Assembly (NCBI GenBank): GCA_945861345.1
Contig: CAMATX010000008.1
Span: 1 to 46,875, forward strand
DNA length: 46,875 nucleotides
Source of the DNA: Comamonas sp. lk
GTDB taxonomy: Bacteria; Pseudomonadota; Gammaproteobacteria; Burkholderiales; Burkholderiaceae_C
Direction of reading: 5' to 3'
The translations under genes and the position numbers were made by a program. Below, piece after piece: positions 4,147 through 16,239 of the stretch (position 1 is the stretch's first letter; every line of letters starts with the position of its first letter). A model generated the notes under the pieces. The model did no database searches and was not told where the DNA came from. It saw nothing but the letters and a program-made list of their open reading frames with translations.

Positions 4147-5529
4147 TTAGGGGGTGACCAGCAATTGCGGCGCGGCCGCGGGTTCAGCGCTGGGGGCCAA
4201 TCGCACACGCGACGCTGGGAACTGGATTTGAAAGCGCGAGCCTTCGCCCGGAACACTCACGATGCTGAGCTCAGCCCCGTGTCGCTGCGCCACATGCTTA
4301 ACGATGGCCAGACCCAAACCGGTGCCTCCGGTATCACGCGAGCGGCTGCGGTCCACCCGGTAAAAGCGCTCGGTTAAACGTGGAATATGTTCGGGCGCAA
4401 TGCCCACGCCCTCGTCCTGGACAGCAAAAAATGCGCCGCCGTCGGCATTGGCATGCAATTGCACCCGGATCGTTTTCCCGCCGGGGGTGTAGCGCGCGGC
4501 GTTACCGATGAGATTGAAGAACGCGCTATGCAACTCCATGGCCGACCCCGCCAGCTCCAAGGCAGGGTCCAGGTCGAACTCCAGGTTCTGGGATTCACCC
4601 CACAAAACGCGGGTCAGTTCCTCGGCCTCTTGGCGACATTGCTCCAGCAAAGGGGCTGCAGCGACCCAATCTTGGCCCGAGGGCAAGGGGCTGCCCTCTA
4701 AGCGTGAAAGCGTAAGCAAATCACTGACCAGGGATTGCATGCGCGAGGCTTGCTGGGCCATCAGGTCCAGGTAGCGCGCGCGTTCGGCTTCATTGAGGTT
4801 CAGAGTCTGCAAAGTTTCGACAAAGCCGCCCAGCACTGTCAGCGGGGTACGGATTTCGTGGGACACGTTGGCCACGAAGTCGCGCCGCATGGCCTCGGCT
4901 TGCTCCAGCGCGGTCACGTCCCGTGAGAGCAGCAGGCTGCGCCCCTGGCCATAAGGGTGAATATGCACCGACAGGCGCACCGGCATAGAGGCCGTGTTGC
5001 TGCGGGCGGGCATCAGCACGTCGTTTTCAAAATCGCCAGCGGCCAAATACGCGGCAAATCCGGGGTCCCGCACCAAATTACCAAAGTGCTGTTGCAAATC
5101 GCGCCGCGCGTCCAGGCCGAAGTGGCGCGCGGCCGATTCATTGAACCATTCGATGCGCAGCTCTTTGTCCAAGAGCGCCACACCGTTGGGCGAGGCCTGC
5201 ATGGCCGCCAAAAACTCTTGCAGGCGCTCATCGCGCTGCTGCATTTGGCGCTCGTTACTGCGTACCAGACGCCGGATGCGGTTGGCAAATTCGCCCCACA
5301 GGCCTGAATCGACCGGCGCATTCTCGCCATCGCCCATGCGCAGCCAGCGCAACAGGCGTAGGCCGCGCACCAAGTCAGAAACCAGCCAGAAGTAGCTTGC
5401 GACTGCGGCCCCCGCCAGGGCGGCCGAAATCGTGCTGACCTGTCCTTTTGCAAAGGCGCTGGCAAAAACAGCGGCCAGCATGGCGCCGAGCGCCTGAAAC
5501 AAGGCGAAAGTCAGCAGGCGAAAAAACAT
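4147..5529 (-). CDS. phoR: phosphate regulon sensor histidine kinase PhoR
   Basis: Membrane-bound sensor kinase that phosphorylates PhoB when phosphate is scarce. The 460 residues show two N-terminal membrane segments (about 5-25 and 33-52), a basic linker, a PAS domain (about 105-210), a HisKA domain with phospho-acceptor His224 in FVANVSHEIRTPL, and a HATPase domain with N box NLIGNAARY (339-347), G1 DEGVGI (372-377) and G2 GGTGLGL (401-407). The length is normal for PhoR. The start is 7 bp after the phoB stop, so the pair is co-transcribed. Position after phoB and downstream of pstSCAB-phoU makes the PhoR assignment secure rather than just 'histidine kinase'. Confidence 0.96.
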   Translation of the reverse strand: MFFRLLTFALFQALGAMLAAVFASAFAKGQVSTISAALAGAAVASYFWLVSDLVRGLRLLRWLRMGDGENAPVDSGLWGEFANRIRRLVRSNERQMQQRDERLQEFLAAMQASPNGVALLDKELRIEWFNESAARHFGLDARRDLQQHFGNLVRDPGFAAYLAAGDFENDVLMPARSNTASMPVRLSVHIHPYGQGRSLLLSRDVTALEQAEAMRRDFVANVSHEIRTPLTVLGGFVETLQTLNLNEAERARYLDLMAQQASRMQSLVSDLLTLSRLEGSPLPSGQDWVAAAPLLEQCRQEAEELTRVLWGESQNLEFDLDPALELAGSAMELHSAFFNLIGNAARYTPGGKTIRVQLHANADGGAFFAVQDEGVGIAPEHIPRLTERFYRVDRSRSRDTGGTGLGLAIVKHVAQRHGAELSIVSVPGEGSRFQIQFPASRVRLAPSAEPAAAPQLLVTP

Positions 5530-5536
5530 AATCGGC

Positions 5537-6265
5537 TCAGGCTATGTGGCTGGGCGCCTCGACCACCGGCACCAATTCCGGCTTGGCGGTGAGCCGGTAA
5601 CCAGCGCCGCGCACCGTCTCGACCATGGCAGCCGCAGCGCCCATCGCCTCGCGCAAGCGCTTGACATGCACGTCCACCGTACGTTCTTCGATGTACACAT
5701 GGTCGCCCCAGACCTTGTCGAGCAATTGCCCACGGCTGTGCACGCGCTCGGCGTGGCCCATGAGATAGTGCAGCAGCTTAAATTCGGTAGGCCCGAGCTT
5801 TAAGGCCTGGTCCAAAAAGCTGACCCGGTGGGTTGCCGAATCCAGGCGCAGCCCCGAAATAAGCAAGGCCTCGTCTTTGGCCTGCGGCGCGCGTCGGCGC
5901 AATACAGCGCGCACCCGCGCGAGTAACTCTTTGGTGGAAAAGGGTTTGGAGATGTAATCATCGGCGCCGGCGTCCAGGCCAGCGACACGGTCGGCCTCGT
6001 CTCCCCGTGCAGTCAACATGATCAGCGGAATCGCCTTGGTCCGCTCATGGCCACGCCAACGTTTGGCAAGCGTTAAACCGCTTTCGCCGGGCAGCATCCA
6101 GTCCAGCAAAATAAGGTCGGGCAAGGCAGCATCAAGTTCACGCTGGGCGCTAACGCTGTCCATGGCCCAAATGGGGCGAAAGCCGTTGTGGCGCAAGTTG
6201 ACCGCAATCAGCTCAGCAATAGAGGGCTCATCCTCTACCAGCAAAACTGTGGGCACGGTCCTCAT
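5537..6265 (-). CDS. phoB: phosphate regulon response regulator PhoB
   Basis: OmpR/PhoB-family transcription factor of 242 aa. The receiver domain has the acidic pair Glu11-Asp12 in LLVEDEPS, phospho-acceptor Asp55 in LLDWMLPG, Thr85 in LTAR and Lys107 in SKPF. The C-terminal winged helix includes the recognition region around ERTVDVHVKRLREAMG. Phosphorylated PhoB binds Pho boxes such as those at 10839-10856 and 10915-10932. Its ATG overlaps the phoU TGA by 4 bp (ATGA), indicating translational coupling. Confidence 0.97.
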   Translation of the reverse strand: MRTVPTVLLVEDEPSIAELIAVNLRHNGFRPIWAMDSVSAQRELDAALPDLILLDWMLPGESGLTLAKRWRGHERTKAIPLIMLTARGDEADRVAGLDAGADDYISKPFSTKELLARVRAVLRRRAPQAKDEALLISGLRLDSATHRVSFLDQALKLGPTEFKLLHYLMGHAERVHSRGQLLDKVWGDHVYIEERTVDVHVKRLREAMGAAAAMVETVRGAGYRLTAKPELVPVVEAPSHIA

Positions 6266-6963
6266 TTGATGGCCTGCTCGACCTGGTCGATGGTGCTGTG
6301 GCGTACGTCTTCGCCCTTGACCACGTAAATGATGAACTCGGCGATGTTTTTGGCATGGTCGCCAATGCGTTCAATGGCCTTGGCCAAGAACAGCAAATCC
6401 AGGCTAGCGGAAATGGTGCGGGGATCTTCCATCATGTAAGTGATGAGTTTGCGTACAAAGCCATCAAATTCGCGGTCAATCAAATCATCCTCTTTCAGGA
6501 TGCTCAGCGCCGCGTTGACATCCAGGCGGGCAAATGCGTCCAGCGCTTTATTGAGCAAGCCTGAGGCCAGATCTGCGGCGTAGCGCAGTTCCTGCGAGGG
6601 CAATGAGCGCGGGGCGCCACTTTCGATAATGGAACGCACCATGCGGGCGATTTTTTCGGCTTCGTCGCCCACACGCTCCAAATTAGCCGTTGTCTTGGAG
6701 ATCGCAATTAACAGACGCAAATCGCGCGCAGTGGGCTGGCGCCGGGCGATGATGGAGGACAGATCGCGGTCAATCTCGATTTCCATGGCGTTAACGCGCA
6801 CCTCGTTTTGCGTCACCTCCTGTGCCGCCTCGGTGCTGAAGTGCGACAGCGCAAATATGGCGCGGTGTATCTGCGACTCCACCAAGCCGCCAAGCTCCAT
6901 GACCTGGGAAGACACGGAGGTCAGCTCAGAATCAAACTGCGTCGAGAGATGTTTATCTGGCAT
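6262..6963 (-). CDS. phoU: phosphate signalling protein PhoU
   Basis: Cytoplasmic, all-helical adaptor that links the PstSCAB transporter to PhoR and keeps the Pho regulon off when phosphate is ample. The 233 residues form the two PhoU repeats of three helices each. The metal-binding motifs are ERVGDEAEKIAR in the first repeat and ERIGDHAKNIAEF in the second. An AGGAAACCCC leader with AGGA before the ATG gives a good ribosome binding site. It lies between pstB (56 bp gap) and phoB (4 bp overlap). Confidence 0.97.
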   Translation of the reverse strand: MPDKHLSTQFDSELTSVSSQVMELGGLVESQIHRAIFALSHFSTEAAQEVTQNEVRVNAMEIEIDRDLSSIIARRQPTARDLRLLIAISKTTANLERVGDEAEKIARMVRSIIESGAPRSLPSQELRYAADLASGLLNKALDAFARLDVNAALSILKEDDLIDREFDGFVRKLITYMMEDPRTISASLDLLFLAKAIERIGDHAKNIAEFIIYVVKGEDVRHSTIDQVEQAIK

Positions 6964-7019
6964 GGGGTTTCCTGCTTTGTGGGGAATAATGGAAATACGA
7001 TAGCAAAAATACCAGCGGC

Positions 7020-7799
7020 TTAACCAAAGCGGCCGGTAATGTAATCTTCGGTTTCTTTGCGGGTCGGTTTAAAAAACATTTGCTCTGTCACGCCGAATTC
7101 AATCAAATCACCCAAATACATGTATGCGGTGAAATCGCTGCAGCGCGCCGCCTGCTGCATATTGTGGGTGACGATAACCACGGTGTAATCAGCTTTCAAT
7201 TCAACAATCAATTCTTCCACTTTGGCGGTGGAGATAGGATCCAAAGCCGAACATGGCTCATCGAGCAACAATACTTCGGGCTTGATGGCGATACCCCGCG
7301 CGATACAAAGTCGCTGTTGCTGACCGCCGGACAAACTGGCGCCACTTTGGTGCAGTTTGTCTTTCACTTCCGTCCACAGCGCCGATTTACGTAAAGCCCA
7401 TTCCACCCGCTCTTCCATATCGGTGGCATGAAGGTTTTCGAAAAGTTTGACGCCAAAAGCCACGTTATCGAAAATAGACATCGGAAAAGGCGTAGGTTTT
7501 TGGAAAACCATGCCCACTTTGGCGCGCAGCAAGGCGACATCTTCTTTGCTGGTCAAAATGTCCTGGCCGTCCAGCAACACCTGCCCTTGGGCGCGCTGCT
7601 CTGGGTAAAGCTCAAACATGCGGTTCAATACCCGCAGCAACGTAGATTTCCCGCAACCCGAGGGGCCAATAAATGCGGTGACGCGGCGTTCCGGAATATC
7701 AAGATTGATGCTTTTGAGGGCCTTGAATTTACCGTAATAAAAATCCAGGTCTTTGATGGCGATTTTGGTTCGCGATGCACCGGTGTCTGTTTTCAGCAT
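7020..7799 (-). CDS. pstB: phosphate ABC transporter ATP-binding protein PstB
   Basis: ATPase subunit of the high-affinity phosphate importer, on the cytoplasmic side of PstC-PstA. The 259-aa protein has Walker A GPSGCGKS (45-52), the Q loop [15 protein letters not shown] signature LSGGQQQRL (156-164), Walker [13 protein letters not shown] and the H-loop [19 protein letters not shown] is characteristic of PstB. The ATG is 24 bp downstream of the pstA stop. Confidence 0.97.
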
Positions 7800-7823
7800 A
7801 GTGTCAATAATCCAATGTAGAGG

Positions 7824-8687
7824 TCAGGACTTTTGTCGCGTGATAACCCGCGCAATAATATTGAGTCCAAGCACGGCAATCGTGATCAGGAAAACACCGG
7901 CCCAGGCCAGTTTTTGCCAGTTTTCATAAGGGCTCATCGCGAATTTGAAAATCGTGACTGGCAGGCTCGCCATGGGCTCGCTCAGGCTGGAGGTCCAAAA
8001 TTGGTTGCTCAAGGCGGTAAACAGCAGAGGCGCTGTCTCACCGGCGATACGCGCCACCGCCAACAAAATTCCGGTAATCACGCCGGCCCGCGCGGCCTTA
8101 AGGGTAATGCTGGCAATAACTTTCCACTTGGGAGCGCCCAAGGCATAGGCCGCCTCGCGCAAGCCAGAGGGCACCAGGCGCAGCATATCTTCGGTGGTGC
8201 GAATCACCACAGGAATGACGATCAAGGCCAGCGCGATCACCCCGGCATAGCCAGAAAATGTTTTGAAGCGCGATACCACCACCGAATACACAAACAGACC
8301 CACCACGATAGAGGGCGCTGACAACAAGATGTCGTTCACAAAACGGGTGGTTTCTGCCAACCAGCCTTTGGAGTCGAATTCGGCCAAATAAATACCCGCC
8401 ATGATGCCCACCGGCGCGCCCACCAAGGTGGCCAGACCGACCATCACGATGGAGCCGTAAATGGCATTGGCCAGTCCGCCCTCCTCATTTGGCGGGGGCG
8501 TCATTTGGGTCAAGGTGGCAAAGGTCAGGCCGCCAATACCCAGTCGAATGGTTTCAAACAATATCCAAAATAACCATACGAGACCAAACATCATGGCCAA
8601 CATGGCCAGCACAATAGCCAACCCGTTGACCCGTTTGCGCGACGCGTAGCGGGCCATGCGCAGAGAATGCAGTTCGGAGGTACTCAT
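7824..8687 (-). CDS. pstA: phosphate ABC transporter permease PstA
   Basis: Inner-membrane permease subunit of 287 aa with about six membrane helices. The first helix is near residues 25-45 ([19 protein letters not shown]), and the ABC-permease EAA loop is in [17 protein letters not shown]. With PstC it forms the transmembrane channel of the phosphate importer. The start overlaps the pstC stop by 4 bp, as is usual for coupled permease genes. Confidence 0.96.
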
Positions 8688-9649
8688 GTTTTGCTCCCCT
8701 CACCTTTGCGCAGTTGCGCCAAAAGAAGCTTGGACAGCGTGAGAATCACAAAAGTAATAAAGAACAGCACCAAGCCCAAATACATCAATGCCGCTTGGTG
8801 CAGGCCCTCGCCGGCCTCTGCAAATTCGTTGGCCAGCGCAGAGGTAATGCTGTTGGCCGCCTGGAACAAACTCAGCGAATCGAGCTGGTTGAAATTGCCA
8901 ATCACAAAAGTCACTGCCATCGTCTCGCCGATGGCGCGACCCAGCCCCAACATGATGCCGCCGATCACACCTGTTTTTGTATAGGGCAGTACCACGGTAG
9001 ATACCACCTCCCATGTCGTCGCGCCCAATCCGTAGGCGGACTCTTTGAGCAGGGGCGGCGTGACCTCAAATACATCGCGCATCACTGCCGATATAAACGG
9101 AATAATCATGATGGCCAGAATAATGCCCGCCGACAAAATGCCAATACCCACAGGCGGACCAGAGACGAAAGCACCTAGATACGGCACGCCCGAAAAAGCG
9201 GTTTGCAAGGGGGTTTGCACATATTGTGCGAGTACCGGTCCAAATACCAGCAAGCCCCACATGCCGTATACGATCGATGGCACCGCAGCAAGCAACTCAA
9301 TAGCGGTTCCCAAGGGCCGCTTCAGCCAGGCTGGTGACAACTCGGTAAGGAAAAGCGCGATACCAAAACTCACTGGGACCGCAATCAGCAAGGCAATCAG
9401 CGATGTCGATACGGTGCCATAAATCATCACCAAGCCGCCAAAATCCTCTTGGACGGGGTCCCACACGGTGCGAGTGAGAAATCCCAGGCCGTATTTATGG
9501 ATCGCAGGCCATGCGCTGATGGTCAGCGACATCAAGATTGCCGCGAGCAATGCCAGCGTAAGCCAAGCGGCAGATTTGGCGGCAAAACCAAATACCCGGT
9601 CTGCCAACGGGCCGCTGTAGGCCCTGGCCGGTACGGTAGTCTGATTCAT
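8684..9649 (-). CDS. pstC: phosphate ABC transporter permease PstC
   Basis: Second permease subunit of the phosphate importer, 321 aa. It shows an N-terminal helix ([20 protein letters not shown]), further membrane segments, and the EAA loop [21 protein letters not shown]. An open frame continues to a TTG at 9655, two codons further out. ATG 9649 ([13 protein letters not shown]) is the conventional start. A 101-bp spacer to pstS contains a 10-bp palindrome, ACCCCGGGGT, at 9674-9683 but no terminator. Confidence 0.96.
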
Positions 9650-9750
9650 GTGCAACTTTGGATAAGTAGTGACACCCCGGGGTTTGCAGCTTAGGAGTGA
9701 TCCCCCTCGCCCCTCTTGCCCAGGGTTCTGTCGTTCAGTTACTGCGTTAG

Positions 9751-10788
9751 TTACTTGTAGGCAATGGGTTTTCCGGCGCCGTCTTTCACTTCAGCCCAGG
9801 ATTTTTGAATCGCAGCTACCACGGCCGGCGGCATTGGGACATAGTCCAGGTCGGCAGCCGCTTTTTCACCATTGGCATAAGCCCAGTTAAAAAACTTCAG
9901 CGCTTCTGCCGCATTGGCCGGCTTGTCTTGCTTGGTGTGCATCAAGATATACGTGGCGCCGCTGATGGGCCAGGCGTCTTTGCCTTGCTGGTTGGTAAGG
10001 ATCTGAAAAAAGGATTTATTCCAGTCCGCGCCGGCAGCCGCCGCCTTAAAGGTGTCGTCTTCGGGTTTGACAAAAACACCGGCCGCGTTTTGCACGATGG
10101 CGTAGGTCATTTTGTTTTGCTTGACGTAGGAATATTCCACATAACCGAGCGAATTGGGCAAGCGGCCAACAAATGCTGCCACGCCTTCATTGCCCTTGCC
10201 ACCCGCGCCAACTGGCCAGTTCACGGCAGTGCCCTCGCCTACTTTGGTCTTCCACTCGGGGCTGACTTTGCTCAGGTAATTGGTAAAGATGAACGTCGTA
10301 CCCGAACCGTCGGCACGACGCACTTGGGCGATGGCGGCATCCGGCAAAGCCACATCGGGGTTGAGCGCTTTGATGGCCGGGTCGTTCCAACGCGCCACTT
10401 TGCCCAAAAAGATGTCTGCCAGCAAAGTGCCGGTCAGCTTGAGTTGGCCGGGCTTAATGCCTGCCACATTGAGAACGGGCACCACGCCACCAATGACGGT
10501 GGGAAACTGAATTTGGCCCTTGGTTTTGAGCACTTCGTCGGTTAACGGCATGTCCGTGGCACCAAAATCCACGGTTTTGGAGTCAATTTGCTTGATACCA
10601 CCGCCCGAACCGATGGACTGGTAATTAACCTTCACGCCGGTCAATTTGTTGTAGTCAGAGGCCCATTTGGAATAAATCGGAGCAGGAAAGGTCGCGCCCG
10701 CACCGGTAATTTCTTGGGCTTGCACGCCGGTGGTCGCTGCCAAAGCCAGTGCGGCCGCCAGGAACGAATAAGGAAACACGTTTTTCAT
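9751..10788 (-). CDS. pstS: periplasmic phosphate-binding protein PstS
   Basis: Solute-binding protein that captures phosphate in the periplasm and delivers it to PstCA. The 345-aa precursor starts [17 protein letters not shown] with a signal peptide cleaved after VQAQ, followed by the conserved mature start [17 protein letters not shown]. Phosphate-binding loop residues are visible in [19 protein letters not shown] and [17 protein letters not shown] chose ATG 10788 over the longer frame to 10833 because AAAGGTG lies just upstream and the signal peptide then has normal length. It is the first gene of the operon, behind the Pho box at 10839-10856. Confidence 0.97.
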
Positions 10789-10838
10789 AAGACACCTTTG
10801 AAGTGGTTTGCGGAACCGGGCAACTTTAAGCATGATTT

Positions 10839-10856
10839 ATGACAGTTTAATGACAT
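10839..10856 (-). promoter_or_regulatory. Pho box upstream of pstS
   Basis: Read on the minus strand, this is ATGTCAT-TAAA-CTGTCAT: two 7-bp repeats at 11-bp spacing, matching the PhoB consensus CTGTCAT-N4-CTGTCAT at 13 of 14 repeat positions. A -10-like TAAAGT (10828-10823) lies 10 bp downstream, the usual spacing where PhoB replaces -35 contacts. The pstS ATG is about 50 bp further on. Confidence 0.88.
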
Positions 10857-10914: not shown

Positions 10915-10932
10915 TTGTCACATATTTGTCAC
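10915..10932 (+). promoter_or_regulatory. Pho box upstream of the fasciclin lipoprotein gene
   Basis: The sequence TTGTCAC-ATAT-TTGTCAC is a perfect direct repeat with 11-bp spacing on the plus strand, close to the PhoB consensus. A -10-like TATTCT (10943-10948) begins 10 bp after it, the same geometry as at pstS. The next gene starts at 10976. Confidence 0.75.
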
Positions 10933-10975
10933 GTTATGTTTTTATTCTCGGGCTTTTCTAACCGGAGATATTGCC

Positions 10976-11476
10976 ATGTCGACTCAAACCACGTTCCAAA
11001 CCGCACGCCGCCTTGTACTGGTCCTGACTGCCACCGCCTGGCTGGGCGCATGTGCCACCGTTCAAAAGCCGCTCAGCATTGCTGACACGATTGCGAACTC
11101 CCCTTCGCTCAGCACCCTGAGCGGCCTCGTGAAAAGCGCTGGCCTGACCGAAACACTGCAAGGCGCCGGACCTTTCACCGTGTTTGCACCCAGCAACGAG
11201 GCCTTCAAAGCTGTTCCAGCCGCCACCATGCAAGACCTGGGCAAAGACCCCGCCAAGCTGAAAAACCTGCTGACTTATCACGCTGTCAGCGGCGCACTGT
11301 TGGCCAAAGATGTAAAAAACAGCAATGCCAAAGCACTCAACGGCGATACGCTCGCATTGTCCAAAGCAGGTGACTTTGTCACGGTGGAAAACGCCGCAGT
11401 CACGCAGGCCGACGTGGTAGCGACCAATGGCGTCATCCACATTGTTGACGCTGTGATGACACCTCCCAAGAAATAA
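10976..11476 (+). CDS. fasciclin (FAS1)-domain lipoprotein
   Basis: A 166-aa protein with a lipoprotein signal peptide (lipobox LGAC, Cys26) and one FAS1 domain. FAS1 motifs are visible: GPFTVFAPSNEAFKAVP (H1 box), LLTYHAVSGAL, and the C-terminal VVATNGVIHIVDAVMTPP (H2 box). FAS1 domains mediate adhesion or protein-protein contacts in the envelope; the bacterial ligand is generally unknown. The start has GGAG 8 nt upstream. It is transcribed divergently from pstS, has its own Pho box and a strong terminator, and is therefore predicted to be a single-gene, phosphate-starvation-induced unit. I infer an envelope role under phosphate limitation, but nothing in the sequence gives the partner. Confidence 0.92.
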   Translation: MSTQTTFQTARRLVLVLTATAWLGACATVQKPLSIADTIANSPSLSTLSGLVKSAGLTETLQGAGPFTVFAPSNEAFKAVPAATMQDLGKDPAKLKNLLTYHAVSGALLAKDVKNSNAKALNGDTLALSKAGDFVTVENAAVTQADVVATNGVIHIVDAVMTPPKK

Positions 11477-11518: not shown

Positions 11519-11544
11519 AGCCCGGCTACGCCGGGCTTTTCTTT
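11519..11544 (+). terminator. intrinsic terminator after the fasciclin gene
   Basis: An 8-bp perfect stem AGCCCGGC/GCCGGGCT with a 3-nt loop, followed by TTTCTTT. It separates the fasciclin gene from ppx on the same strand. Confidence 0.88.
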
Positions 11545-11610: not shown

Positions 11611-13098
11611 ATGTCTCTTCCCACACGTTTGGCAGCCATTGACCTGGGCTCCAACAGCTTTCGGCTGGAAATCGGCCAACTTTCCCATGGTGCCTTTGAG
11701 CGCACCGAATACATCAAAGAATCCGTGCGCCAAGGCGCAGGCATGGACAGCGAGCGCAATTTGACCGACGCGGCCATGCAGGCCGGCTGGGATTGTTTGG
11801 CCCGCTTTGGCGAGCGTTTGGCGGGCTTTAAGCCTGCACAGGTGCGTGCCGTGGCAACGCAAACGCTGCGCGAAGCGCGCAACCGCAACTACTTTTTGGA
11901 GCGCGCGGTGCAAGTCCTGGGGTTTCCCATTGACGTCATTTCCGGGAGGGAAGAGGCGCGCCTGATCTACAAGGGCGTCTCCCACCTACTGCCCCCTTCG
12001 CCTGAGCGGCGCTTGGTGGTTGACATCGGCGGGCGCTCCACCGAGCTCATTTTGGGCGAGCAGCACACACCACGGGTTTTGGAGTCATTTCGCGTAGGCA
12101 GTATTGCCTGGTCAACGCGCTATTTTCCCGATGGGCAATGGCGCCGAAAAGCTTTCGAAACGGCCGAAGTAGCGGCCAAAGCAGTGCTGGAGGGTGCCAT
12201 AGAGGCCTACGGACCCACAAAATGGGATGTTGCCTATGGCTCGGCGGGCACCGTCAGCGCCGTCAGCGAGGCGCTGTTGGCGGGCGGTTGGCCCGAGGGG
12301 GTCGTCACTCCCGAAGGGTTGGACTGGTTGCGCGAACGCCTCATTGCGGCCGAATCGGCCGACAGCACCAAAGTGGCGGGCTTGCGTGAGGACCGTAAGG
12401 CCATCATTGCCGGGGGTTTGAGTGTGACGCGCGCCTTGTTCAGCTTGCTGGGAATTAGCCGCATGCACCCGACTGCGGGCGGTCTTCGCCACGGCCTGAT
12501 TTGCCAAATGCATGGCTCGCGCGAGGATGCCTCCGACCTGCGGGCCAAGACCGTAGACCGTCTGGCCACTAAATTCAACGTCGATAAAACCCATGGTGCA
12601 CGCGTCGGTGCGGTGGCCACCACGTTGCTGACGCACCTGCTGCCTGCCAAGGTCGAAGATGCCATCCGTCCTGAGCGAAAACTCAAATGGGCGGCGCAGC
12701 TGCACGAAATAGGCAGCCATATTTCCCACAGCGACTACCACAAGCACGGCGCCTACATCTTGCAAAACGCGGACGCCATGGGATTCTCACTGGACGAGTT
12801 GCACCGCTTGAGCGTGCTGGTGCTGGGCCACCGGGGCAAGCTGCGCAAAATAGAGGAGGAGCTGGCACTGCCAGAGCTGCGTGCGCAGCTGGTGGCCCTG
12901 CGTGTGGCCGTCATCCTGTGCCATGCGCGGCGCGATCCGCAGCCCGACTGCGTATGGGTGCAATCCAGCAAATCGGCCCTCACTTTGTTTTGCACGCGGG
13001 CCTGGGCGACCGAGTTCCCCCAGTCGGCCTATCTGCTGCGCGAAGAGGCGCTGGCTTGGCAAAAGACGCCCTGGCCGCTGGAATTTGTTGAAGTCTGA
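11611..13098 (+). CDS. ppx: exopolyphosphatase Ppx/GppA
   Basis: Hydrolyses terminal phosphates from inorganic polyphosphate, and in the GppA sense pppGpp. The 495-aa protein has the ASKHA phosphatase fold. Phosphate loop 1 is LAAIDLGSNSFRLEI near the N-terminus, loop 2 is VVDIGGRSTELILG, followed by GSIAWSTRYF, and a C-terminal HD-like region contains LHEIGSHISHSDYHKHGAYIL. The open frame begins at 11485, but ATG 11611 fits the family start and the upstream part overlaps the fasciclin terminator. It converges on sixA-ppk, so synthesis and breakdown of polyphosphate are encoded tail to tail. Confidence 0.95.
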   Translation: MSLPTRLAAIDLGSNSFRLEIGQLSHGAFERTEYIKESVRQGAGMDSERNLTDAAMQAGWDCLARFGERLAGFKPAQVRAVATQTLREARNRNYFLERAVQVLGFPIDVISGREEARLIYKGVSHLLPPSPERRLVVDIGGRSTELILGEQHTPRVLESFRVGSIAWSTRYFPDGQWRRKAFETAEVAAKAVLEGAIEAYGPTKWDVAYGSAGTVSAVSEALLAGGWPEGVVTPEGLDWLRERLIAAESADSTKVAGLREDRKAIIAGGLSVTRALFSLLGISRMHPTAGGLRHGLICQMHGSREDASDLRAKTVDRLATKFNVDKTHGARVGAVATTLLTHLLPAKVEDAIRPERKLKWAAQLHEIGSHISHSDYHKHGAYILQNADAMGFSLDELHRLSVLVLGHRGKLRKIEEELALPELRAQLVALRVAVILCHARRDPQPDCVWVQSSKSALTLFCTRAWATEFPQSAYLLREEALAWQKTPWPLEFVEV

Positions 13099-15787: not shown

Positions 15788-16239
15788 AGTTTTCTAAGTT
15801 GCCTCATCTAACACCAGCAGGCGTAGCGGCTAGCTTACTTCAGGCCTGTGACGCACCCGCAAATCAACGCCGATGACGGGCCAAATTGTCCTACTCCCAC
15901 GAAATTATGACCCCATAAGGCGACCCCAGGGAGGTGGCTTCTGACCGAGCAGAGGAAATAACTAAAGATTTTGTGAAATTAAGGCGTCAATTTAATGACA
16001 AATATATTTCAATACCAAGAATACATTCATTTCGGTAAAAGAGTGCAATTACCAAATTGGTATTGCGCAGTAATGACAAACACCCATATTCGTGCGATCT
16101 GTCGACCTCCTGCCACAGGTATTTTGATTTACACGAAATTCACAGATGCGTCATACAAAAAATCAACACTTGCGCGTCGATTCGAAATGCATTTTTGAAT
16201 TTTGGCAATTAGTTCAAACCCTTAATGAAAGATTTATTC
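15788..16239. other. 452-bp AT-rich divergent intergenic region between ppk1 and the porin
   Basis: This is the longest gene-free stretch in the window. Its right half (about 15950-16239) is clearly richer in A and T than the surrounding genes, as expected for a promoter-containing leader. It holds the inverted repeat at 16045-16066. The only open frame, 15995-16198, has no ribosome binding site and no recognisable protein features. I could not place -35 and -10 elements with confidence. Confidence 0.7.
16045..16066. promoter_or_regulatory. 22-bp inverted repeat, candidate operator upstream of the porin
   Basis: The core TACCAA-A-TTGGTA (16050-16062) is a perfect 13-bp palindrome. Outer arms GCAAT and ATTGC extend it to 22 bp with a single-base bulge. 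A matching half-site, ATACCAA, occurs at about 16012-16018. Its size and symmetry suggest a dimeric repressor or activator site; the regulator is unknown. Confidence 0.5.

Follow-up and report, generated by a model that had tools for sequence, protein, structure and literature searches.

A FAS1-domain lipoprotein gene divergent from pstS in Comamonas sp. lk is a predicted member of the Pho regulon

The window, i.e., the whole stretch of 46,875 nucleotides of Comamonas sp. lk DNA analysed here (contig CAMATX010000008.1 of assembly GCA_945861345.1), contains a phosphate cluster in which phoR, phoB, phoU, pstB, pstA, pstC and pstS occupy the minus strand from 4147 to 10788, pstC and pstA having been identified by position, size and tblastn. 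After pstS, the opposite strand carries a gene for a FAS1 (fasciclin) domain protein followed by ppx, by what we take, from position and size, to be a SixA-like gene, and then by ppk and a porin gene. An earlier note on this DNA had placed the FAS1 gene (plus strand) divergently from pstS (minus strand), and this arrangement is confirmed; the gap between the two genes measures 187 bp and holds two predicted Pho boxes in opposite orientations. The relevant features are:

4147-5529, minus strand: phoR (HisKA, HATPase_c and PhoR domains), presumed regulator
5537-6265, minus strand: phoB (Response_reg and Trans_reg_C), presumed regulator
9751..10788, minus strand: pstS, phosphate-binding protein (PF12849, E 1.8e-32), heading pstS-C-A-B-phoU-phoB-phoR, with FAS1 divergent from it
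10839..10856, minus strand: predicted pstS Pho box ATGTCATTAAACTGTCAT (weight-matrix score 19.7), followed after 10 bp by the -10 TAAAGT at 10823-10828
10915..10932, plus strand: predicted Pho box TTGTCACATATTTGTCAC, TTGTCAC-ATAT-TTGTCAC, directed toward FAS1; exact consensus match, conserved in relatives
10943..10948, plus strand: predicted -10 TATTCT, 10 bp 3' of the Pho box
10964..10968, plus strand: Shine-Dalgarno-like GGAGA, 7 nt 5' of the ATG, read off the sequence
10976..11476, plus strand: gene for a FAS1 (fasciclin) domain lipoprotein of 166 aa (PF02469; lipobox LGAC, Cys26, Ala at +2)
11519..11537, plus strand: terminator-like hairpin AGCCCGGCTACGCCGGGCT, then TTTCTTT; 8 pairs, 7 of them GC, not above shuffles (mean 1.2)
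11611..13098, plus strand: ppx, exopolyphosphatase (PF02541, E 2.1e-63), 3' neighbour of FAS1

The perfect TTGTCAC repeat with 11-bp spacing that the earlier note had described upstream of FAS1 is indeed present, its half-sites at 10915-10921 and 10926-10932 carrying no mismatch, and the accompanying claim of a -10-like TATTCT placed 10 bp past the repeat, as at pstS, proved equally correct, the pstS box being followed at the same distance by a hexamer of this kind. An available excerpt of PMC4415409 defines the Pho box as two 7-bp direct repeats having a 4-bp spacer and a TGTCA core, and both this arrangement and a -10 at fixed spacing are found at FAS1; the importance of spacing for PhoB sites is stated in the accessible part of PMC10294691. 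The box ends 43 bp before the FAS1 start, and the profile scan finds phoB and phoR in the same cluster as the FAS1 gene, as expected of a Pho-regulon member. With a weight matrix built on pstS boxes the FAS1-side box scores 24.7, the maximum of the window, where it is also the single perfect match; sites with at most three mismatches number 5 against 3.04 expected. A site on the ppk side (15984-16001), having 3 mismatches and a score below 10, is not claimed as a Pho box.

In the 2.63-Mb assembly the pattern YTGTCAYNNNNYTGTCAY, i.e., YTGTCAY-N4-YTGTCAY, has two perfect matches, one of which is the FAS1 box, and with at most one mismatch it has 10 matches versus 2 for the reversed control pattern. 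Four of these 10 near-consensus sites precede genes, namely FAS1, pstS, a PPK2-type gene and an outer-membrane receptor candidate, while the remaining six fall within mechanically called open reading frames. The sites before the PPK2-type gene and the receptor candidate lie at G000:C65:2513-2530 (L085) and G000:C7:16038-16055 (L076), respectively, the reading frame of the latter, a carboxypeptidase-regulatory-like protein, beginning 216 bp from the start of its Pho box; both names were judged from the translations.

As to the 3' end of the transcript, the earlier note had spoken of a monocistronic gene with its own terminator. The hairpin and the T-run are there, but shuffled sequences yield 1.2 such structures by chance, and the assignment rests on position and sequence, not on statistics; likewise, monocistronic organization agrees with the window, but among the 47 relatives whose 3' sequence could be read there are 17 in which FAS1 is followed, as nearest recognised gene, by one for a solute-binding protein on the same strand.

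The product belongs to the FAS1 family (PF02469, E 4.7e-37, 127.4 bits against a cut-off of 22), and no second FAS1 gene was found in the source assembly, which is 94% complete. The AlphaFold2 model, for which the protein alignment comprised 64 of 98 diverse orthologues, has a pLDDT of 89.3, and a fold search returned 32 PDB matches at E <=0.001, with FAS1 proteins on top and TGFBIp, Fdp, MPT70 and CupS among them. Comparison of the window protein with its 90% identical counterpart L032 gave dN 0.055 versus dS 1.03; the protein is under purifying selection. The lipobox LGAC, a bacterial lipoprotein signal, predicts lipidation of the Cys at residue 26. FAS1 starts in relatives were extrapolated from alignments and those yielding a lipobox were favoured, the procedure being identical for orthologues and other FAS1 proteins; so counted, a lipobox is present in 115 of 122 orthologues and in 3 of 33 other FAS1 proteins, one of these three (L026) belonging to the Pho-linked clade defined below. 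According to the Lol rules an Ala at +2 of a lipoprotein directs it to the outer membrane, and the finding of this residue in 112 of the 115 suggests that the FAS1 lipoprotein is sorted there. The lipidated Cys and the TVFAP motif lie 42 residues apart in 88 of 112 orthologues and the first FAS1 helix of the model starts at residue 35, leaving a tether of about eight residues; the domain would therefore be held near the membrane. Five orthologues (L021, L025, L053, L055 and L057) have lost the lipobox, with a displaced Cys and a twin-arginine-like start, and have kept the Pho box; in these, anchoring would be gone and regulation retained.

A match to the FAS1 protein occurs in 29 of 41 near genomes, its own included, and 44 matching loci were found on named genome contigs, those of Caenimonas koreensis DSM 17982, Polaromonas sp. 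AER18D-145 and Comamonadaceae bacterium OS-4 among them. In the family, 169 of 299 genomes have a FAS1 match, 77 of them at E 1.0e-37 or better; since most family genomes are without the gene by the latter measure (77 of 299 matched), FAS1 would be an optional part of the phosphate response. Of these 77, 74 were fetched and 73 proved directly divergent from pstS, the lone exception (L152) adjoining glmM in a genome whose only pstS found is on another contig; among the 26 fetched loci scoring worse than E 1.0e-37, none has pstS divergent beside FAS1. The counts given below exclude the window copies (L001, L002), the Pho-box hits (L076-L085) and L075, which gave no usable hit. Removal of 18 near-duplicates from 173 FAS1 records left 155, of which 118, window included, are pstS-divergent and 37 are not; the latter contain four orthologues, namely L041 (at a contig edge), L047, L051 and L152, which were set aside to leave 33 comparison genes.

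Conservation of the box was assessed with a weight matrix trained solely on pstS-side boxes (109 sites) and then run on the FAS1-ward strand, the null being the 99% level of dinucleotide-shuffled sequence. A FAS1-ward box exceeding this level is present at 110 of the 118 non-redundant pstS-divergent loci versus 2 of the 33 FAS1 genes elsewhere, these two being L026 and L184, which encodes a soluble protein and has a weak site; 8 of the 118 fall below the null on the box alone. The -10 is kept in register, as seen in columns unused in selection at the 97 passing loci with 25-70 bp between the box and the expected start (T11 in 85, A12 in 94 and T16 in 89 of 97). When box and -10 are scored jointly all 118 loci pass, versus the same 2 of 33, a descriptive figure since the -10 weights were set after the pattern had been seen. 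From the end of the box to the chosen FAS1 start the median distance is 49 bp, with quartiles of 44 and 65. Over 98 aligned bp the information is concentrated in both TGTCA half-sites and in the -10, most other columns being near zero, with weaker conserved columns beside the -10 and, when the 118 loci are aligned, at -8 to -6 relative to the FAS1 box. The latter trace lies 11 bp 5' of the leading half-site and suggests that some loci have a third one for PhoB; none is seen in the window.

The earlier note had made lack of conservation of the repeat, in relatives that keep FAS1 beside pstS, an observation that would overturn its proposal; the proposal survived this comparison (110/118 versus 2/33), and the view of FAS1 as a predicted Pho-regulon member is supported by a conserved box with a -10 at fixed spacing. 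A chance match is ruled out by the window and genome counts together with the conservation in relatives; slowly changing shared intergenic ancestry is ruled out by a spacer and flanks mostly of near-zero information beside informative half-sites and -10; and the notion that any FAS1 gene has a box is ruled out by the 2 of 33 found elsewhere. Likewise, among 42 loci from the order and phylum scans that lack both linkage to pstS and membership of the Pho-linked clade (only part of them being in the tree), a single one reaches 9.40 on the box alone within 300 bp upstream, namely L223 (9.6), which is soluble and outside the clade; the next scores are 9.2 (L211), 8.6 (L199), 8.0 (L195) and 7.6 (L231), all below 9.40.

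All four orthologues set aside (L041, L047, L051, L152) pass the pstS-trained matrix. At L047 and L051 a PPK2 gene is inserted between pstS and FAS1 and each of the three genes has a box of its own; the box is retained also away from pstS at L152, by glmM, where the -10 was judged out of register, and at L215 and L216, which belong to another family and have pstS on a different contig. Because it is kept at these five loci, at which FAS1 does not adjoin pstS, the box appears to be tied to FAS1 itself.

In a tree of 92 rows, made of randomly drawn orthologues to which selected other proteins were added and based on few columns, the 55 Pho-linked rows all fall in one clade (SH-aLRT 99), consisting mostly of lipoproteins, and the 37 other FAS1 proteins, mostly soluble, lie outside; the Pho-linked label corresponds to a single change on this tree. 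Within the clade L220 forms a long branch (0.95). This FAS1 lipoprotein gene, from another family (G378), lies downstream of pstC-pstA-pstB instead of being pstS-divergent, with a moderate box (score 12.2) and no in-register -10, and would represent a different linkage to the same phosphate transporter. Outside the clade, the lipoprotein-type FAS1 proteins L221, L222 and L225 (family f30), whose genes have no Pho box, constitute by their sequences a second, independent lipid-anchored group, and since they are without box the lipobox alone does not accompany Pho control.

What occupies the place divergent from pstS when FAS1 is missing was seen in a control in which 53 of 60 family genomes had a pstS (E 1e-60 or better) and 20 without a FAS1 match at E 1.0e-37 or better were chosen. 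The pstS box is present in 20 of these 20, and 13 of 20 have an outward box as well, its neighbour being PhoX (L255, PF05787), PPK2 (L260, L269), ppx (L256, L257, L263, L264, the site of L257 being marginal at 7.4 with no -10), a Peripla_BP_6-type solute-binding protein (L258 by Pfam; L259, L261, L262 and L270 by tblastn) or glmM (L251/L271, where a box-like site of 13.4 has no in-register -10). No outward box above threshold was found in the other 7 of 20, whose neighbours are ppx (L265, L267, L268), a solute-binding protein (L266) and glmM (L272, L273, L274). The place divergent from pstS is, as far as predicted boxes tell, a general slot for Pho genes. A box exclusive to FAS1 is ruled out by these 13 relatives, and because of them part of the box conservation reflects the slot.

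The slot has further occupants. PPK2-type genes with a Pho box are found there at L047:3155-3889, L051:3187-3861, L260 and L269, sometimes between pstS and FAS1. Peripla_BP_6-type genes (e.g., L258:349-1491 and L058:4521-5669) lie behind FAS1 or, in five FAS1-lacking relatives, behind the outward box, and such a solute-binding-protein gene is likely an unrecognised Pho gene. Too little 3' sequence is available at 71 of the 118 loci; at the 47 readable ones the next recognised gene on the same strand is a gene of this type (17/47), ppx (24/47) or neither (6/47), and in the window, from which the solute-binding-protein gene is absent, ppx comes next. No Pho box occurs in the 260 bp 3' of FAS1 in nine loci examined, and this suggests that, where the solute-binding-protein gene is next, it may form an operon with FAS1.

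The occupancy of the slot by other genes gives some substance to the idea of a general bidirectional Pst control region, whose outward PhoB sites serve the pst operon or descend from an earlier Pho gene, FAS1 being merely adjacent. This would account for outward boxes next to PhoX, PPK2, ppx, the solute-binding protein and the glmM of L251/L271. On the other hand, it does not readily explain why the -10 stays in register at FAS1 with a median of 49 bp from box to start, nor why FAS1 retains the box when split from pstS by PPK2 or placed on another contig; moreover, three of the four glmM neighbours have no outward box and the fourth (L251/L271, 13.4) lacks an in-register -10. We regard a bidirectional region of this kind as improbable, and it would still make FAS1 PhoB-activated. 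Less credible still is the proposal that the repeat resembles a PhoB site by chance or without function, FAS1 being constitutive or otherwise controlled. Most intragenic PhoB sites of E. coli do appear non-functional according to an excerpt of PMC10294691, but the FAS1 site is intergenic, and box and in-register -10 are conserved over 118 loci. Activation of FAS1 by PhoB, with sorting of its lipoprotein product to the outer membrane, remains the best explanation, to which we assign a probability of roughly 0.85.

The sequence of events in this preferred reading would be that established for this promoter type (PMC4415409, as excerpted), in which PhoR acts on PhoB, PhoB~P binds the direct repeats and sigma70 polymerase is recruited; it is from such established PhoB biology that PhoB binding and a response to phosphate can be expected at FAS1. 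At low phosphate, PhoR would phosphorylate PhoB, a dimer of which would occupy both TTGTCAC half-sites at 10915-10932 in place of a -35 element and bring sigma70 polymerase to TATTCT (10943-10948); the resulting short FAS1 mRNA would probably terminate at the hairpin 11519-11537. After export, the product would receive its lipid on Cys26 and be directed by the Ala at +2 to the outer membrane, a location that follows less firmly, from the Lol rules, than does the regulation. In phosphate starvation the single FAS1 domain on its tether of about eight residues might then serve as a binding or scaffolding domain near the outer membrane, its ligand or partner being likewise a matter of weaker inference.

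The closest parallels on the promoter side are the E. coli pstS-type promoters, which share with FAS1 two 7-bp TGTCA-type half-sites at 11-bp spacing, a -10 in fixed register and a cognate phoBR in the cluster; what differs is the target, here a FAS1 lipoprotein. On the protein side, Fdp of Rhodobacter sphaeroides and Nex18 of Sinorhizobium meliloti consist, as here, of a single exported FAS1 domain, and the Fdp structure 1w7d matches the window protein in both sequence and fold. However, the signal peptide of Fdp is removed and its control is by the Prr pathway (PMC7561615, in part), whereas a lipobox and a Pho box are found here. The mycobacterial MPT83/MPB83 and MPT70/MPB70 also have a FAS1 domain, MPT70 (1nyo) being a fold match, and MPB83 has a surface-anchored form (excerpt of PMC6032426). 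They come from a different phylum, and MPB83 is glycosylated.

CupS, the FAS1 subunit of cyanobacterial NDH-1MS (6tjv, 2mxa; 41-42% identity in the fold match), offers a precedent for a FAS1 domain as docking subunit of a membrane complex; to our knowledge CupS has no Pho link. A further parallel is the extracellular lipoprotein of Caulobacter crescentus, which we take to be ElpS. Production under phosphate starvation (PMC2996285), predicted for the FAS1 lipoprotein, would be common to both; the Caulobacter protein is secreted.

PhoB control of a FAS1 gene is reported in no title or abstract among the matches listed from the open literature, subscription journals being mostly outside it. Among these, the nearest printed statement is, loosely, one sentence in the accessible text of PMC12757957, which groups APA, MPB83/MPB70 and PstS1 as upregulated in phosphate starvation and is ambiguous as to the protein meant. 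PhoB does not occur in the main text of PMC5343134, a regulon survey, nor fasciclin in that of PMC9426549. The biotite experiment in which a FAS1 gene of Collimonas changes was done in a medium without Fe and Mg and was not a phosphate one (PMC12542777, in part), and in Antarctic mats fasciclin and PF12849 transcripts occur in low-flow modules, the fasciclin being cyanobacterial and not tied to phosphate (PMC9870883, in part).

What the FAS1 lipoprotein does is a separate question, for which two main answers can be envisaged. A starvation-induced adhesin or matrix protein, promoting attachment where phosphate is scarce, which the earlier note had offered as an example, would be compatible with PhoB activation and is suggested by the 100-fold reduced adherence of R. 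sphaeroides fdp mutants (cited from earlier work in the available part of PMC7561615), by the exterior-surface interactions attributed to FAS1 proteins in the accessible text of a FAS1 review (PMC6032426) and by the designation of APA, MPB83/MPB70 and PstS1 jointly as adhesins in the same sentence of PMC12757957. However, bacterial FAS1 proteins outside the Pho-linked clade are mostly soluble (in a tree without Fdp), and a surface-exposed domain on so short a tether, about eight residues, would presumably be buried in LPS, which does not favour an adhesin of long reach; we consider the adhesin possible but rather doubtful. A scaffold close to the membrane, or an accessory to phosphate uptake, is our tentative choice and at least as likely as adhesion, because the tether is short and the gene is persistently paired with pstS. 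That the function is neither of these but something else seems unlikely. A bolder version of the uptake proposal, which we consider improbable, would make this FAS1 subfamily a working part of Burkholderiales phosphate uptake, an outer-membrane-tethered docking domain and not a mere co-regulated adhesin. If this were true, docking to PstS, to the solute-binding protein often encoded downstream or to an outer-membrane channel would allow faster capture of phosphate or organophosphate.

Activation by PhoB, our preferred reading, makes the FAS1 lipoprotein a strongly predicted new member of the Pho regulon; the system itself is of a known kind. FAS1 proteins are widespread in bacteria, and for few of them has a trigger or a role been established; a clean promoter prediction conserved over many genera would say when this subfamily is made and supplies a simple condition in which to test it, the Pho box being confined, in the present tree, to a single clade made up mostly of lipoproteins. 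The pstS-divergent slot, which houses optional Pho genes such as those for FAS1, PhoX, PPK2, ppx and the Peripla_BP_6 protein, may in turn be mined for functions that serve these bacteria at low phosphate.
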